Positions 55,706-63,640 of a stretch of DNA of 64,000 nucleotides are shown piece after piece (the first letter of the stretch is position 1; every line of letters starts with the position of its first letter). Origin of the DNA: a bacterium (GTDB taxonomy: Bacteria; Sysuimicrobiota; Sysuimicrobiia; Sysuimicrobiales; Segetimicrobiaceae); assembly GCA_035307765.1 (NCBI GenBank), contig DATGHU010000042.1, positions 1-64,000 on the forward strand. Reading direction: 5' to 3'. The translations under genes were made by a program, and so were the position numbers. The notes under the pieces are model-generated. The model did no database searches. It was given only the letters and a program-made list of their open reading frames with translations, and was not told where the DNA came from.

Positions 55706-56905
55706 TCAGATCACCCCGCGCCGGTGAAGCGCGTCGATCTCCGTCCGGGAGAGCCCCAACAGTTCCCCGTAGATCTCTGCGTTGTGCGCGCCCATCGCCG
55801 GCCCTGCCCACGCCAGCCTCCCCGGTGTGCGGCTGAACCGAGGAACGACTCCGGGGAGGGCGAGCGGGCCGACGTCCGGATCGTCGACCTCGACGATCAT
55901 CCCGCGATCGCGGACCTGCGGGTCGCGGCAGATCCCGGCGATGTCGTACGCGGGTCCCGCCGGGACCCCCGCCTCCGCCAAGCGTGCGGTTAACTCGTCC
56001 AGCGGAAACTGCTCCGTCCAGGCCGCGACCGCCGCGTCCAGCTCCGCCTGCCGTTCTCCCCTCCCCCGATCGTCGGTGAGCCCGGGATCCTCCGCCCAGT
56101 CCGACCGGCCCATCAGCGCGGCGAGCCGGCGGAACACGTTGTCATTGTTCGCTCCGATCACCACGTACTGGCCGTCTTGAGTCGGGTAGATGCCGCTGGG
56201 GGCGACCCCGGGAAGCCCGGTGCCGTGGCGCTGCCCGATGATTCCGAGCTTCTGGTACGCCGGCAGGAGGTCGTCGAGCAGGCTGAACGTCGCCTCGGTG
56301 AGCGCCACGTCGATCTCCTGCCCGTGCCCGCTCCGGCGGCGTTCCTCAACGGCGGCGAGAGCGGCGACCGCCCCATAGAGCCCGGCGACCGAATCGGCAA
56401 GAGCAAATCCGACTCGCGTTGGCGGTCGATCGGGGTACCCGGTGAGGAAGCGCACCCCGGCCATCGCCTCCGCCACCCCGCCGAACCCGGCCCGCTCTCG
56501 ATAGGGCCCGGTTTGTCCATAGCCGCTGATCCGCACCATGATCAGTCGGGGGCACGCATCCGCCACCTGGGCGTACGCCAACCCCCACCGCTCCAGCACC
56601 CCAGGCCGAAAATTCTCCACGACGATGTCGGCCAGACCGTAGAGCCGGCGGGCGAGTTGCTGACCTTCCTCGCGATGCAGATCAAGGGTGATCGCGCGCT
56701 TGTTGCGGGAGAGGAGCTTCCAGAGCAGCGAATGCCCCTCTACCTGCGTCCGCCACCCGCGGATGGGATCGCCCCGGCCCGGCTGCTCGACCTTGATCAC
56801 ATCCGCCCCGTAGTCGCCGAGGATCCGGGCGCAGCACGGCCCGGCGATCATGTTTCCGAGATCGAGCACCCGCAGCCCGACGAGCGGACCGGCGCTCTCG
56901 AGCAC
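55706..56905 (-). CDS. class III CoA-transferase (CaiB/BaiF), second of a pair
   Basis: A 399-residue CoA-transferase starting at GTG 56905. LDLGNMIAGPCCARILGDYGADVIKVE (in part) and NKRAITLDL are the N-terminal marks; the catalytic Asp171 is in ALADS. Family III enzymes move CoA between carboxylic acids through an aspartyl-CoA anhydride. It lies between its paralogue and the lyase, with junctions of six bases or less. Confidence 0.93.
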   Translation of the reverse strand: MLESAGPLVGLRVLDLGNMIAGPCCARILGDYGADVIKVEQPGRGDPIRGWRTQVEGHSLLWKLLSRNKRAITLDLHREEGQQLARRLYGLADIVVENFRPGVLERWGLAYAQVADACPRLIMVRISGYGQTGPYRERAGFGGVAEAMAGVRFLTGYPDRPPTRVGFALADSVAGLYGAVAALAAVEERRRSGHGQEIDVALTEATFSLLDDLLPAYQKLGIIGQRHGTGLPGVAPSGIYPTQDGQYVVIGANNDNVFRRLAALMGRSDWAEDPGLTDDRGRGERQAELDAAVAAWTEQFPLDELTARLAEAGVPAGPAYDIAGICRDPQVRDRGMIVEVDDPDVGPLALPGVVPRFSRTPGRLAWAGPAMGAHNAEIYGELLGLSRTEIDALHRRGVI

Positions 56906-56910
56906 GGCCG

Positions 56911-58137
56911 TCAGGCCTTCCGCACGTCCCGCGACGAGCGCTGCGGGGGACGCCCGATGACGTGGGCAGCGCGCAGTTCCTCGATGCGCTGATCGGTATA
57001 CCCGACCTCGCGCAGCACCTCTTCCGTGTGTTCCCCCAACAGCGGCGGGGGCAGCCGGAACGCCCCCGGGGTCTCGGACAATTTCACTGGCATCCCGAGC
57101 AGTTTCACCTTGCCGTGAATCGGGTGCGGCATCTCCACCAGCATCTGCTGATCGAGGATCTGGGGGTCGCGAAAGACCTCCGCCAGGTTGTAGATCGGGC
57201 CGCAGGCAATACCCCGCTCGTTGAGGAAGGCGACCCACTCCGCCTTGGTTCGCGCCTGAAACGCCGCGTTCAAAATCGGATTCAGTTCCTCCCGGTGCGC
57301 GACGCGATCGTTGTTCGTGCGAAACCGGGGATCCTCCAGCAGTTCGGGGTGTCCCAAGGCGTCGCACAACCGCTTCCACATCACCTCGTTGCCGGAGCAC
57401 AGGTTGAAGGGACCGTCCTGCGCCTGATAGACGCCGAACGGTGACGACAGCGGATGATGGTTTCCGGCCACCCCGGGCGGGGTGTCCGTTTCAAAGTACA
57501 TCCCGGCGCTCCAGGTGAGCAACGCGACCATGGCGTTGACGATCGCGACCTGGACCTCCTGCCCCTGTCCGGTGCGCTCGCGGGCCAACAACGCAAGCAG
57601 GATGCCCCGGCAGGCCGTGGTGGCGCAGGTCAAATCCGCCAGCGCGATGCCGGCGCGGGTCGGACCCGTCGCAGCCTGTCCCGTGATGCTCATGAATCCC
57701 GACATCCCCTGCCCGACCTGATCGAAGCCGGGACGCTGACTGTAGGGCCCGGTACTCCCAAACCCGGTGATCCGGCAGTAGACCAATCGCGGATTTTCGC
57801 GCCGCAACTTCTCTGCCCCCAACCCGAGTCGCTCCATCACCCCGGGGCGGAAGTTCTCCACCAACACGTCCGCACCACGCGCCAGGCGTTGGACGATTTC
57901 CCTGCCGGCCTCGGTTCGAGTGTCGATCGTGATGCTGCGCTTGTTGCGGTTCGCCGCCGCAAAGAAGTAGCTGTTGCCGACCAGATCCTGGCGGAGGCTC
58001 TGATAGCGAGAATGGTCCCCGTCGATGGGTTCGACCTTCACGACATCGGCGCCGAAGTCCCCGAGCTCCTGGGTACAGTACGGCCCGGCGAGAAACCGAG
58101 TCAGGTCTACCACGCGGATACCGTCGAGCGGACGCAT
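56911..58137 (-). CDS. class III CoA-transferase (CaiB/BaiF), first of a pair
   Basis: A 408-residue CoA-transferase: VVDLTRFLAGPYCTQELGDFGAD (in part), NKRSITID, ENFRPGVMERLG, catalytic Asp168 in ALADLT. Two adjacent paralogues of this family can form a heteromer, as in succinyl-CoA:benzylsuccinate or malate CoA-transferases, or act on different acids. Three bases downstream of the crotonase. Confidence 0.94.
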   Translation of the reverse strand: MRPLDGIRVVDLTRFLAGPYCTQELGDFGADVVKVEPIDGDHSRYQSLRQDLVGNSYFFAAANRNKRSITIDTRTEAGREIVQRLARGADVLVENFRPGVMERLGLGAEKLRRENPRLVYCRITGFGSTGPYSQRPGFDQVGQGMSGFMSITGQAATGPTRAGIALADLTCATTACRGILLALLARERTGQGQEVQVAIVNAMVALLTWSAGMYFETDTPPGVAGNHHPLSSPFGVYQAQDGPFNLCSGNEVMWKRLCDALGHPELLEDPRFRTNNDRVAHREELNPILNAAFQARTKAEWVAFLNERGIACGPIYNLAEVFRDPQILDQQMLVEMPHPIHGKVKLLGMPVKLSETPGAFRLPPPLLGEHTEEVLREVGYTDQRIEELRAAHVIGRPPQRSSRDVRKA

Positions 58138-58140
58138 GGA

Positions 58141-58920
58141 CTACCTCCCCTGGAAGCGGGGCCGGCGCTTCTCGAGGAACGCCCGCACCCCCTCGCGATA
58201 GTCGTCACTCTCGTATGCTCGCTCGACGAACGCTGCCAGGACCGACTCCGTCATCTCACCCTCGCCGAGGAGATGCTGCAACATCAGCTTTGCACCCCGC
58301 TGTGACAACGGGGCCTGCTCCGCCAGATGATGCGCATATTCGTATGTTTGCGATTCCAGCGTGCCGGGGTCGCAGACCCGGTTCACGAGGCCCATGGTTT
58401 GAACCTCCTCAACGCCCAGGAGCCGTCCGCTGAATAGGATGTCGCGGGCGTGACTCGGGCCCACGATGCTCGCGAGCCGCCGCGTACTCGCGAGGCCGTA
58501 GATGATGCCCAGCCGCGCCGCGGTGATACCGAACCGAGCGGTACGCGCCGCAAACCGCAGATCGCAGGCAAGCGCCACCTCGAGGCCGCCCCCGACGCAG
58601 AACCCGTGGATCATCGCGATCGTGGGCCTGGGGAACTCGGCCAGCGATCGATCGGCGGCTTCCACCGTCCGGCTGTACCGCCGCGCCGTCGTGCGATCAG
58701 CCCGCACGCGCCCGAACTCCGAAATATCGGCGCCCGAAGCGAACGCCTCTTCGCCGGCGCCCCGGATGACCAGCACGCGGAGGTTCGTATCGACCGCAAG
58801 GTCTGCGAGCAGGGATGGGAGCGCCTGCCACATCTCAAAGCTGATCGCGTTTCGCTTCGCCGGTCGGTTGAACACCAGCGTCGTCACAGCACCGCGCTCT
58901 GCAACGACCAAATCTTCCAT
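58141..58920 (-). CDS. enoyl-CoA hydratase/isomerase-family protein
   Basis: A 259-residue crotonase from ATG 58920 behind ggaggg. The oxyanion region ASGADISEF and the first catalytic Glu in GGGLEVALACD are present. The second is replaced (FGITAARLGI, where hydratases have PE), so isomerase, lyase or other crotonase chemistry is as likely as hydration. First gene of the operon that continues with two CoA-transferases and the lyase. Confidence 0.92.
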   Translation of the reverse strand: MEDLVVAERGAVTTLVFNRPAKRNAISFEMWQALPSLLADLAVDTNLRVLVIRGAGEEAFASGADISEFGRVRADRTTARRYSRTVEAADRSLAEFPRPTIAMIHGFCVGGGLEVALACDLRFAARTARFGITAARLGIIYGLASTRRLASIVGPSHARDILFSGRLLGVEEVQTMGLVNRVCDPGTLESQTYEYAHHLAEQAPLSQRGAKLMLQHLLGEGEMTESVLAAFVERAYESDDYREGVRAFLEKRRPRFQGR

Positions 58921-59078
58921 CCGGCACCCTCCGGTTCCTACTCTCCAGGCCATGAGCGTTCGCGCGAGGCGGGAACCGTTCCTTTCCTCCCGTCCGAGTC
59001 GGAGGCGTGACGGACGCCCAATCATCACGAAATCGCCCCGGCGACAAATCGGCCGGCCCCTCGGGGCGAGGAGGCTAA

Positions 59079-60337: not shown

Positions 60338-61297
60338 TTAGTGGCTCGCCGGAGGGCGACGACGCAGCGCCGCGGCGAGGCCGTACGCGAGGGTGAGCGC
60401 GAGCATGCCCGCGACGATCTCGGGCCAGAGATCCCGAGACACCAGCAACCCATCGAGACGCACCGAGACCGCTGTCCCGGCACGCACGGGACCGCCGGAC
60501 AATCGAATGTAGGGTCGTCCGCGTTCGGTAATAGAGCCGTTGGCGCGCACGCCAATCCCGGACGCCCGAATGCTGTGATCCACGAGCAGCTCCACGTCCG
60601 TCGCGCCGTACGGCAACAACCACCGCAGGGTCGCCGTACGGGTGCGCGGCTCGAACCTGAACGTGTACGCGACCTCCATCGTGCCCGGCAGCACCGGCGT
60701 CGCGTCGGTGATCGTCCCGCGCGCCACCTGAGGGTCCCGCCAGCCGCCGACAAATTCTACCGGCTCGGGACCGAGCGGGAGCGGGGACACCTGCGGGAGT
60801 GGGAACACGAGGGGATCCGCGTCCGTCGCGACGATGGCGCGGTCGGTCGCATTTTGCAGACGCTGAATGACGCTCACGCGGAGCCCGCGTTGCAGGGGCT
60901 CGACGACGGCGAACGCGATGGTTCCATGCAGGGCCGTACGGTCCTCGGTGGACTCGAACACGGACAGCTGCACGTCTCGCGCGGGGACCGCGGGAGTCAA
61001 GGCGGCGCGGGCGGTGTACGACACCCCGCCGTATTGAACCTGTACGAGGAACACGCGGATTCCGCCAAGCGGCAGACTGGAAAACGCAAAGCGGCCCTTC
61101 GGATCGGTCGTCGTCCCCCGTGTCGAGGTGGAACCGCGCTCGACGATCTCGAGGTTCACCCGCTGCCCGGCGACCGGATGCACCGGGGGCGTATCATCGA
61201 GCACCACGCCGCGGATCTCGCCGGTCGCGCTTGTTGCCGCTGCGGCTGCGTCGAACGCCCCTATGCTTGTGCCGAGGGCCGCACACACAAGGAGCAC
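60338..61297 (-). CDS. exported, C-terminally anchored protein with transthyretin-like domain
   Basis: A 319-residue protein with a signal peptide (residues 1-20). A carboxypeptidase-regulatory/transthyretin-like beta domain follows (EIRGVVLDD, TTDPKGRFAFSSLPLGG). A second beta-rich region comes next, then one C-terminal transmembrane helix (PEIVAGMLALTLAYGLAAAL) with a basic tail. Such proteins bind or display other exported proteins; no activity can be named. It is third in the same direction after the sulfocyanin-like and Cyc2-like genes (236-bp gap), so a shared role at the cell surface is possible. Confidence 0.7.
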   Translation of the reverse strand: MLLVCAALGTSIGAFDAAAAATSATGEIRGVVLDDTPPVHPVAGQRVNLEIVERGSTSTRGTTTDPKGRFAFSSLPLGGIRVFLVQVQYGGVSYTARAALTPAVPARDVQLSVFESTEDRTALHGTIAFAVVEPLQRGLRVSVIQRLQNATDRAIVATDADPLVFPLPQVSPLPLGPEPVEFVGGWRDPQVARGTITDATPVLPGTMEVAYTFRFEPRTRTATLRWLLPYGATDVELLVDHSIRASGIGVRANGSITERGRPYIRLSGGPVRAGTAVSVRLDGLLVSRDLWPEIVAGMLALTLAYGLAAALRRRPPASH

Positions 61298-61533: not shown

Positions 61534-62994
61534 CTAGAACGCCCACCAGGTGAACAAGAGAAGCGTGTTGTTGTCGCTGGCGTTGCGTCCATTTCCATCG
61601 TAGTTTGTCGTCCCACCGTTGAACTGTAAGTAGTAGGTGTATTGCAGTCCGACCCGCACATTGAGCCATGGAAAACCCGCGTGTTCATTATCGCTGCCGA
61701 ACGGCGTCCAATCGATTTGAGCAATGATGGCCTGTGAGTTCGGACTGCCGCTCGCGCTCCCCGTCATCGGCGCGGGAGCAAAGAGGGTCGAATCATTGCT
61801 TCCGGAGATGCCGCTGTACGCGAGCGTCAGTCCGTACGTATCGTGCCAGTAATAGGAGGCGGCGAGGCGAAATTGCGTCAGGGAGTTTGACGCATTGCTT
61901 GACAGACCCGCGGCGAAGGACGCGCCCAGGTTTTGCGTCTCGAACAGGATGTTGCTGGTGATGGCGAGGACGTCCGGTCCGAACCGCCGCTGGTAGGTGG
62001 CGTCGAGCCCCCAATCGGTGTACTGATTTTGCGCCGAGGGGCTGAGTGCGCCCGGGATCTGCTGGAGAGGGATATTCATCCACACCCCGCCGACTTCGAA
62101 GAAGTTATTGCCCCACGTGTGCTGGTCGGCGAGCCGGAAATACGGGGCGCCGCCGCTAATGGTGCCAAGGCTCGGGGCGGCGATGTTCATGCTGCTGAGC
62201 AGGTTGGCGCTCCATGTTTGGTAGAGGCCGACTTCGGCAAAGATTGAGTTATCGTACAAACCCGACAGGCTGAGCCCGTAGACCGAAGTGCCGAGCGCGC
62301 TGATCGCCGGGCTCGCAGCCGGCGTGGGTCCGACGAACGGCGTGAGATACGGGAACTGGAAGCCATTGTAGAGGGTGTTGTAGGGATCGCCTCCCGACGG
62401 CTGATTGGCGAGATCGAACCCGAGCAAGAGCGAGTGATCCCCGAACGTGAGATTTTTCGTGATCGCGAGGTCCGACGTAGCCTCAGATGAGACCAACGAT
62501 CCCCCTGGAACGGCAAGGAAGCCCACTTGCTCAAATCCACCGATGCCAAAGTTGTCGCCGAAGGAATACCCCCCCGCGATGAAGAGGGACGTTCCACTTC
62601 CGAGAATATTGAAAAAATTGTTCGTGCCGTAGCCCGCGGGCGCCGTCGGTTGGTCCCTCGCATCGGTCTGGAAGCTCGGTGAAACCACGAGATTGACGGG
62701 AATATGCGACCACGGGCCGGTGCCCCCAGCGAGGGTATAGCCGTTGGCTCTGAAAGAGATACCGAAAGGGGTGAGTTGAGGCCCGAATCCGCCGACATGG
62801 CAGGCGCTGCATGGCGCACCCGTTTGCCCGGAGAAACTCGGCAGTGCATCGGCAGGTCGGACCGCTGGGTATGCCACCACGAGCATCAGGGCGCCCAGGA
62901 GACCCGTGAGCAGATAGACGGACGGACGCAGAATGCTCGTGCGTACCGCTTTCGGTTCCGGAAGGACCTCTCCCCCTCCAGACCTGCTCCTCAC
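61534..62994 (-). CDS. Cyc2-like fused cytochrome c-outer membrane porin
   Basis: 486 residues from GTG 62994. A long signal peptide ends near ADA50. The mature start LPSFSGQTGAPCSACH holds one heme motif CSACH (Cys62, Cys65, His66), then GPQLTPFGISFRANGYTL. The heme box followed by a LTPFGxxFxxxGY stretch is the mark of Cyc2-type fused cytochrome-porins. The remaining 400 residues alternate polar and aromatic positions as in beta-barrels and end WWAF, the C-terminal Phe recognised by the Bam machinery. Cyc2 (485 residues in Acidithiobacillus ferrooxidans, from memory) oxidises Fe(II) at the cell surface. 100 bp downstream of a blue-copper gene. Confidence 0.75.
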   Translation of the reverse strand: MRSRSGGGEVLPEPKAVRTSILRPSVYLLTGLLGALMLVVAYPAVRPADALPSFSGQTGAPCSACHVGGFGPQLTPFGISFRANGYTLAGGTGPWSHIPVNLVVSPSFQTDARDQPTAPAGYGTNNFFNILGSGTSLFIAGGYSFGDNFGIGGFEQVGFLAVPGGSLVSSEATSDLAITKNLTFGDHSLLLGFDLANQPSGGDPYNTLYNGFQFPYLTPFVGPTPAASPAISALGTSVYGLSLSGLYDNSIFAEVGLYQTWSANLLSSMNIAAPSLGTISGGAPYFRLADQHTWGNNFFEVGGVWMNIPLQQIPGALSPSAQNQYTDWGLDATYQRRFGPDVLAITSNILFETQNLGASFAAGLSSNASNSLTQFRLAASYYWHDTYGLTLAYSGISGSNDSTLFAPAPMTGSASGSPNSQAIIAQIDWTPFGSDNEHAGFPWLNVRVGLQYTYYLQFNGGTTNYDGNGRNASDNNTLLLFTWWAF

Positions 62995-63094
62995 GCGGTT
63001 CCCCCCTTCGGCGGTGTGCCTCCGCTCATGACCGAAATGCTCCCGACCAGGCCTGCCTTCTCACCCGCACCCGCGCCGGGGCAGACTGGCCGCG

Positions 63095-63640
63095 CTACTT
63101 TACGGTAAACGTCACCGCGTCCGCCGGGGCCGCGCTCGGTGCGTCGGCCGTCGCCGAAACGATCAGGTTGGCCCACTGTCCGACGGGCGCGTGCCCTTGG
63201 ACGCCGCAGACAAACTCGTACGATCCGGCCTTGCTGGCCTCGAACGTGATCGTCTCCTTGGCACCCTTGGACAACCCCGCGCTATAATCCGATGTGGTCG
63301 CACCCGAAAACACCGGGGCGGCCGCCTCCGGATGCTGGTGCCCGCCGGCGGGCAACACGGCCAAACTGTGATTCAACGCTCCGGCGTTCTCAAAGTGCAC
63401 TACAACCTCCCACCCGGCGGGGACAGTGATCGTCAGGGCTCCACGATTGAGCCCATTGAAGTTCATGGTCTTATTGCTCTTATTCTCACCCGCGGTGATC
63501 GCAAATTCGACCGAGTGCTTCGCCGCGCCCCGGACCGACGCCTGAGGGGCCATCACGATGACTGTTGCTGCGAGCGCCCCGACCGTTAACCCCCGAAGCG
63601 CCCTTACAATAACCGGGGCTACTCTGTGTTCCTGCGTCAC
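63095..63640 (-). CDS. sulfocyanin-like blue-copper protein (cupredoxin)
   Basis: 181 residues from GTG 63640, behind ggaggt six bases upstream. A signal peptide or anchor (about residues 12-38) is followed by a cupredoxin domain with MNFNGLNRGALTITVPAGWEV and NHSLAVLP (His91), typical of sulfocyanin. The C-terminal copper loop reads FVCGVQGHAPVGQW, giving Cys145 and His150; position 155, where the axial Met stands in sulfocyanin and rusticyanin, is Gln. It would carry one electron in the periplasm and is the natural partner of the Cyc2-like protein encoded next. Confidence 0.85.
   Translation of the reverse strand: MTQEHRVAPVIVRALRGLTVGALAATVIVMAPQASVRGAAKHSVEFAITAGENKSNKTMNFNGLNRGALTITVPAGWEVVVHFENAGALNHSLAVLPAGGHQHPEAAAPVFSGATTSDYSAGLSKGAKETITFEASKAGSYEFVCGVQGHAPVGQWANLIVSATADAPSAAPADAVTFTVK

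Follow-up and report, generated by a model that had tools for sequence, protein, structure and literature searches.

A Cyc2-family cytochrome-porin paired with a glutamine-ligand sulfocyanin as a candidate outer-membrane electron conduit in a diderm bacterium

The window, the 64,000-nucleotide stretch of DNA analyzed here, comes from an uncultured, non-proteobacterial organism and carries three genes in line on its minus strand: a sulfocyanin (63095–63640), after 100 bp a cytochrome-porin (61534–62994), and after a further 236 bp an exported protein that combines a carboxypeptidase-regulatory-like domain with a C-terminal membrane segment (60338–61297). The cytochrome-porin, a Cyc2-family monoheme protein of 486 aa, runs from a GTG start codon preceded by AAGGGGGG to a TAG stop. 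Its signal peptide region (aa 1–49; 62848–62994) was assigned from the sequence and contains a low-confidence helix (25–40) in the structural model; the hydrophobic segment ends ...RPADA↓LPSF. Next come ALPSFSGQT (aa 50–58; 62821–62847), the counterpart of the Cyc2 motif AxPxFAR[QK][TY] with AR replaced by SG, and the heme-binding CSACH (aa 62–66; 62797–62811), the sole CxxCH of the protein, which also contains LTPFGISFRANGY. The β-barrel spans about aa 100–486 (61537–62697), as judged by an AlphaFold2 model, Foldseek and the C-terminal motif, and ends FNGGTTNYDGNGRNASDNNTLLLFTWWAF, with Phe as the last residue (...TWWAF). The signal peptide, the C-terminal Phe and the 100-bp same-strand gap to a cupredoxin gene, all pointed out in the original prediction, are present in the sequence. 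The CxxCH is single, as had been claimed, but lies about 12 residues past the cleavage site rather than directly after it.

The sulfocyanin, a blue copper protein with a signal peptide, probably starts at a GTG at 63640 behind GGAGGT (GGAGGTGTTGAT), the position at which the original prediction had ended the region; the reading frame is open to 63736. It matches Pfam SoxE (PF06525) at 4.7e-22 and 78.5 bits, passing the gathering score (cut-off 21), and the copper protein that had been called sulfocyanin-like is a true sulfocyanin. Against TIGR03094 it scores 76.9 bits, below the curated cut-off of 168.4, and it reads as a member of that model's family, not as the archaeal equivalog. Its copper ligands fall within 63176–63370 (minus strand): His at 63368–63370, Cys at 63206–63208, His at 63191–63193 and an axial Gln at 63176–63178. 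The type 1 ligand set (His, Cys, His, Met) is thus incomplete, with Gln in place of the axial Met. This position is equivalent to Met148 of rusticyanin, and Met occupies it in rusticyanin and most sulfocyanins.

Within the window family, the axial ligand follows gene context: Gln is found in all four sulfocyanins that directly adjoin Cyc2, and Met in 20 of the 21 others with a readable site. The exception (G006:C142, L175) is a Gln-ligand sulfocyanin with no Cyc2 found in its 3-kb stretch. At this locus (445–2955) the fifth Gln-ligand copy is flanked by another cupredoxin and by a long, barrel-like protein that has no Pfam match, an arrangement that may represent a second kind of porin–copper protein pair. 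A sulfocyanin tree built without the axial column requires at least two changes without firmly distinguishing a single origin from two; no more than two independent changes underlie the Gln pattern. The Met148Gln change takes rusticyanin from 667 mV down to 563 mV, and stellacyanin, whose axial Gln is natural, lies at 265 mV (PMC11881046); the potential of Cyc2-PV1 is 208 mV (PMC8406198). By analogy, the Gln form of sulfocyanin may be tuned to a low-potential donor.

By published criteria (PMC8406198), a Cyc2 has a signal peptide, one CXXCH, at least 365 aa, the motif AXPXFAR[Q/K][T/Y], PXL about 4 residues after CXXCH and a 16-strand porin. The window protein has the signal peptide, the single CXXCH, 486 aa against the threshold of at least 365, and a fused 16-strand porin; its PQL sits 5 residues past CXXCH, within the offset of 3–5 among the references. 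ALPSFSGQT retains A, P, F, Q and T of the motif. The strict form AxPxFAR[QK][TY] occurs in 0/9 window-family sequences, 18/67 proteobacterial homologues and 18/18 sequences of Zeta clusters 1 and 3, and its Arg is absent from all nine window-family sequences and from many alphaproteobacterial relatives. The reference Cyc2 of a rusticyanin (rus) operon reads FARQL and likewise misses the strict motif, so the departure from it was not treated as excluding the window family. Since the Arg is missing, the published database screen (PMC8406198) would have dropped these sequences.

The same rus operon, in the gammaproteobacterial genome G713 (locus L151), served as the functional anchor. Its order is cytochrome-porin, one further protein, COX2, COX1, oxidase-assembly-like genes and a rusticyanin-model cupredoxin (137.2 bits, slightly below the cut-off of 146.7), a layout of the cyc2–cyc1–cup–cox–rus kind described in PMC10654088; the stretches examined at the rusticyanin loci of G804, G605 and G659 contain no Cyc2, which is present only at L151. 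Aligned end to end with the rus-operon Cyc2, the window protein is 27% identical (E 2e-39; 1e-99 in a profile search), with FNGGTTNYDGNGRNASDNNTLLLFTW set against FDGASSNYDGLGRNASDNNTLSFFTW, and its alignment with putative Zetaproteobacterial cluster 1 is limited to the N-terminal 110 residues. A 115-row tree groups the window family with the proteobacterial homologues and the rus-operon Cyc2 (99 SH-aLRT, long branch); outside this group fall the presumed Zeta cluster 1 and 3 rows, whose labels were inferred from the sequences. Within the Cyc2 family, the window porin thus falls on the Acidithiobacillus side ("Cluster 2") and outside Zetaproteobacterial clusters 1 and 3.

Searches of Pfam, NCBIfam and PDB sequences gave no match for the porin, so its Cyc2 membership rests on homologues, tree and fold. 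The AlphaFold2 model, computed from 50 sequences (mean pLDDT 82.8, pTM 0.81), shows a confident barrel of about 16 long strands; its least confident part is the cytochrome domain with the heme segment (pLDDT <50 at aa 41–53 and 62–68). The best PDB folds retrieved by Foldseek are the 16-strand porins OmpT, Omp32 and OmpU, and also OprP/OprO; a 16-strand porin is likewise the Cyc2 fold reported by Keffer et al. 2021 (PMC8406198). The 486-aa protein is therefore a Cyc2-family fused cytochrome-porin. The Cyc2-like identity put forward in the original prediction holds, as does the 16-strand-type barrel that it proposed to look for, the full-length homology being to the rus-operon Cyc2 and not to unrelated CxxCH proteins.

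Among 61 genomes, the porin gene is confined to the window family, where 6 of the 12 members searched carry it, the window's own genome included, with extra copies in two; it was not found in the other 6, two of which are only 64–68% complete. Intact full-length homologues share 68–76% identity in five related genomes, three paralogues 50–55%, and dozens of Proteobacteria carry full-length homologues at 33–45%. This conservation, together with the recurrence of the gene pair in two further genomes of the window family, speaks against a chance feature. In a 50-row bootstrap tree, the nine window-family sequences form one clade (100/100) whose sister is a pair of metagenomic "Proteobacteria" bins (L010/L011; 97/90), and both lie within Rhodospirillales/Acetobacteraceae-type sequences (100/99). 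A constraint keeping the proteobacterial rows together without the window family was rejected (AU p = 0.0013). This nesting in Proteobacteria argues for transfer with a change of carrier; the simplest reading of the tree is that the gene would have entered the lineage from Proteobacteria and then duplicated. On a plasmid of Acidithiobacillus ferrooxidans YQ-N3 (CP084173.1, L098, 5890–8186), a Cyc2 homologue lies with a c-type cytochrome gene and an adjoining transposase gene, and Acidiphilium plasmids give matches to the same part of the query; Cyc2-type genes are thus mobile on plasmids.

The carrier slot beside the porin varies among loci. A sulfocyanin lies directly upstream of the porin on the same strand, 44–229 bp away, at four places in three genomes (that of the window, G009 and G011); in G009 and G011 the pairing repeats as arrays near genes read by eye as CcmA/B, joined in G011 by CcmC/F and a Rieske-like protein. 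In G005 the upstream slot holds a class I cytochrome c (L092:7721–8245, 311 bp from the porin), so sulfocyanin is not obligatory. In G002 the contig ends upstream of the porin. A third arrangement, conserved in G006, G009 and G011, is a run of sulfocyanin, CuA cupredoxin, Fer4_5 polyferredoxin (about 490 aa), CuA cupredoxin and porin (L094:6498–10979, L096:6494–10996 and L093:9288–13986), adjoined by a HisKA_3/LuxR-type two-component system; no oxidase subunit I was recognized near the CuA proteins in these stretches. Among 80 proteobacterial loci, at least 18 have a class I cytochrome c and at least 11 a HiPIP within 1.5 kb of the porin, counts that are minimal because the scoring covered a single cytochrome family and several of the contigs are short; a sulfocyanin-like gene within that distance occurs in 0/80. 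The closest proteobacterial relatives (L010, L011, L012, L014, L030 and L033) have a cytochrome c in the upstream slot at 11–280 bp. The carrier slot beside the Cyc2-family porin is exchangeable.

Downstream, a gene of the 60338–61297 type comes after cyc2 in G000, G002, G005 and G006. Its protein may serve in cytochrome assembly or in anchoring. A paralogue with 48% identity (L195:13095–14027) lies inside the ccm/Rieske/cytochrome b cluster of the window genome and so ties the module to cytochrome biology. The contig continues 2 kb past the window end, and upstream of the sulfocyanin it carries a metallo-beta-lactamase–rhodanese fusion resembling persulfide dioxygenases (L090:9162–10286, window about 64161–65285).

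The host has the machinery that such a module would use. Omp85/BamA is present in 19 of the 21 genomes of the order, that of the window included, so the host is not monoderm; "Bacillota-like", if taken to mean a single membrane, does not hold, and a monoderm host was rejected. The lineage, with one class and one order, may tentatively be placed in Sysuimicrobiota (CSP1-3), whose layout in PMC11604079 it resembles. Pfam confirms CcmC, CcmE and CcmF in the window genome, with an ABC ATPase at the CcmA position, and the same stretch carries a diheme cytochrome c, a Rieske-like protein (by eye) and cytochrome b. The genome has three COX1 genes, and one set (COX1–COX3–COX3–COX4) lies behind a Met-ligand sulfocyanin. 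All three systems that the original prediction had tied to its reading, namely Ccm, BamA and a terminal oxidase, were thus found in the same genome. A search of eight family members found no RuBisCO; iron oxidation, if any, would therefore probably be carried out by an organism that uses organic carbon or another route of CO2 fixation. The genes at 55706–59028 of the window, which by eye encode two CaiB-type CoA-transferases and an enoyl-CoA hydratase, suggest heterotrophic metabolism; with these fatty-acid/CoA-transferase flanks and no RuBisCO, the host looks heterotrophic.

Building on what was computed (family membership, barrel, recurring gene pairing, carrier exchange, transfer, Gln ligand and supporting machinery), we infer that electrons pass directly between the two proteins, in which direction they flow, and that Fe(II) donates them. 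In the mechanism we propose, the Ccm system would attach one c-type heme to the exported 486-aa porin, and BamA would insert it in the outer membrane as a barrel of ~16 strands with the heme at the N-terminus. One electron would come from a reduced donor inside or close to the pore, most likely dissolved Fe(II), and reach the heme, which would pass it to the neighboring periplasmic sulfocyanin and from there, directly or via other cupredoxins or cytochromes, to a heme-copper oxidase. As to its history, the porin gene would have come from a proteobacterium, in whose relatives a small cytochrome c fills this slot; the recipient lineage's own sulfocyanin would then have taken that slot, with a Met-to-Gln change at the axial position expected to lower the potential. 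On balance, the best explanation of the locus is that the two genes probably form the outer half of an electron-transfer chain, as originally proposed. We are highly confident that the porin is an outer-membrane electron conduit and consider the sulfocyanin its likely direct partner. The chances that Fe(II) is the natural donor are about even. Many porin homologues occur in Proteobacteria not known as iron oxidizers.

The most serious competitor keeps the same conduit but assigns it another donor or acceptor, such as Mn(II), Cu(I), humics, electrode-like minerals or an outward electron overflow. We regard this as rather unlikely, though it draws on the absence of RuBisCO, on relatives that are mostly heterotrophic Proteobacteria, on the warning in PMC8406198 that the function of many Cyc2 homologues is unverified, and on the treatment of Cluster 3 as possible reduction by FeGenie (PMC7005843). 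On the other side, Fe(II) was oxidized by all three biochemically tested Cyc2 proteins (PMC8406198), the rusticyanin-operon type is the tested side of the tree that lies nearest, and RuBisCO is unnecessary for lithoheterotrophic iron oxidation.

The pairing itself could be accidental, with the sulfocyanin serving the COX complex and the porin another carrier. Same-strand adjacency at four places in three genomes, its repetition in arrays and the near-confinement of the Gln ligand to Cyc2-adjacent copies make mere neighborhood improbable, even with the G005 cytochrome c, the three loci in which the sulfocyanin lies 2.2–2.6 kb off behind CuA and Fer4_5 genes, and the many window-family sulfocyanins found elsewhere, alone or beside COX1. 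Copper or other metal detoxification, in which barrel and cupredoxin would handle periplasmic copper instead of respiration, is very improbable: cupredoxins and CuA-like proteins do cluster with the porin, but its covalent heme motif is invariant across the family, no copper-efflux or CopA/CopB gene was recognized beside it, and ccm, Rieske-like and cytochrome b genes neighbor the porin or the paralogue in G011 and the paralogue cluster. Binning contamination, suggested by a Cyc2 tree nested in Proteobacteria and by a pair near the end of a 66-kb contig, an end that would then be proteobacterial, was rejected as scarcely credible, given that the porin recurs in five other assemblies, that the window-family sequences of six genomes make up a separate 100/100 clade and share neighbors, and that paralogues of the sulfocyanin and of the 60338–61297 protein lie elsewhere in the same genome.

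The Cyc2-family conduit and its sulfocyanin partner are well supported as real, and we found no earlier description of such a pair for the window lineage. The literature naming both proteins, in the parts available, gave no description of the two as neighboring genes, and reports may exist elsewhere; PMC8223813, considered as a prior report, was set aside, as it states that neither was found.

Cyc2 is a marker for microbial iron oxidation, and its periplasmic partner is usually unknown. Our findings suggest that an outer-membrane electron wire of the Cyc2 type can change its periplasmic partner. With three carrier types beside one porin family, in a small lineage and its likely donors, partner exchange becomes testable with few proteins. 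A whole Cyc2 branch may be under-counted in surveys that use an Arg-requiring motif screen, and a Cyc2-type gene is now placed in a lineage whose iron metabolism we did not find described. More tentatively, and with somewhat less than even confidence, Cyc2 conduits could be modular: on entering a new lineage the outer-membrane component would retain its function, a cytochrome c or HiPIP carrier giving way here to the recipient's own sulfocyanin, retuned by a natural axial change from Met to Gln, in a lithoheterotrophic iron oxidizer that is a little-known, non-proteobacterial diderm.

Among known systems, the rus-operon Cyc2 (Acidithiobacillus type, "Cluster 2") shares with the window porin full-length homology, one CxxCH, the barrel and the C-terminal NYDGxGRNASDNNTLxxFTW; the cyc2–cyc1–cup–cox–rus system (PMC10654088) likewise combines a periplasmic blue-copper partner with an oxidase. 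The two differ in sequence (27% identity, and no Arg in the upstream motif of the window porin) and in partner, which is rusticyanin with cytochrome c4 in the rus operon and a sulfocyanin outside any oxidase operon in the window. Proteobacterial Cyc2 homologues (Acetobacteraceae/Rhodospirillales, Thiomonas, Rhodanobacter, Dyella and Caulobacteraceae) align over the full length at 33–45% identity and carry the CHVGGFGPQLTPFG signature also seen in the window porin, but their recognized carrier is cytochrome c or HiPIP instead of sulfocyanin. Cyc2 cluster 1 (Zetaproteobacteria, Gallionellaceae and Chlorobium; Cyc2-PV1) has the N-terminal cytochrome motif and the general barrel design in common with the window porin, whereas only the N-terminal 110 residues align and a long branch lies between them.

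On the copper side, rusticyanin M148Q and stellacyanin carry an axial Gln on a type 1 site, as the window sulfocyanin does; in contrast to the mutant, the Gln here is natural and sits in a sulfocyanin, whose lower potential is an expectation. Ferroplasma and Sulfobacillus have sulfocyanins of the same SoxE family, proposed as carriers in iron oxidation (PMC4062416, PMC10427800). No outer-membrane porin is involved there, whereas in the window a porin lies beside the sulfocyanin and Gln replaces the axial Met.
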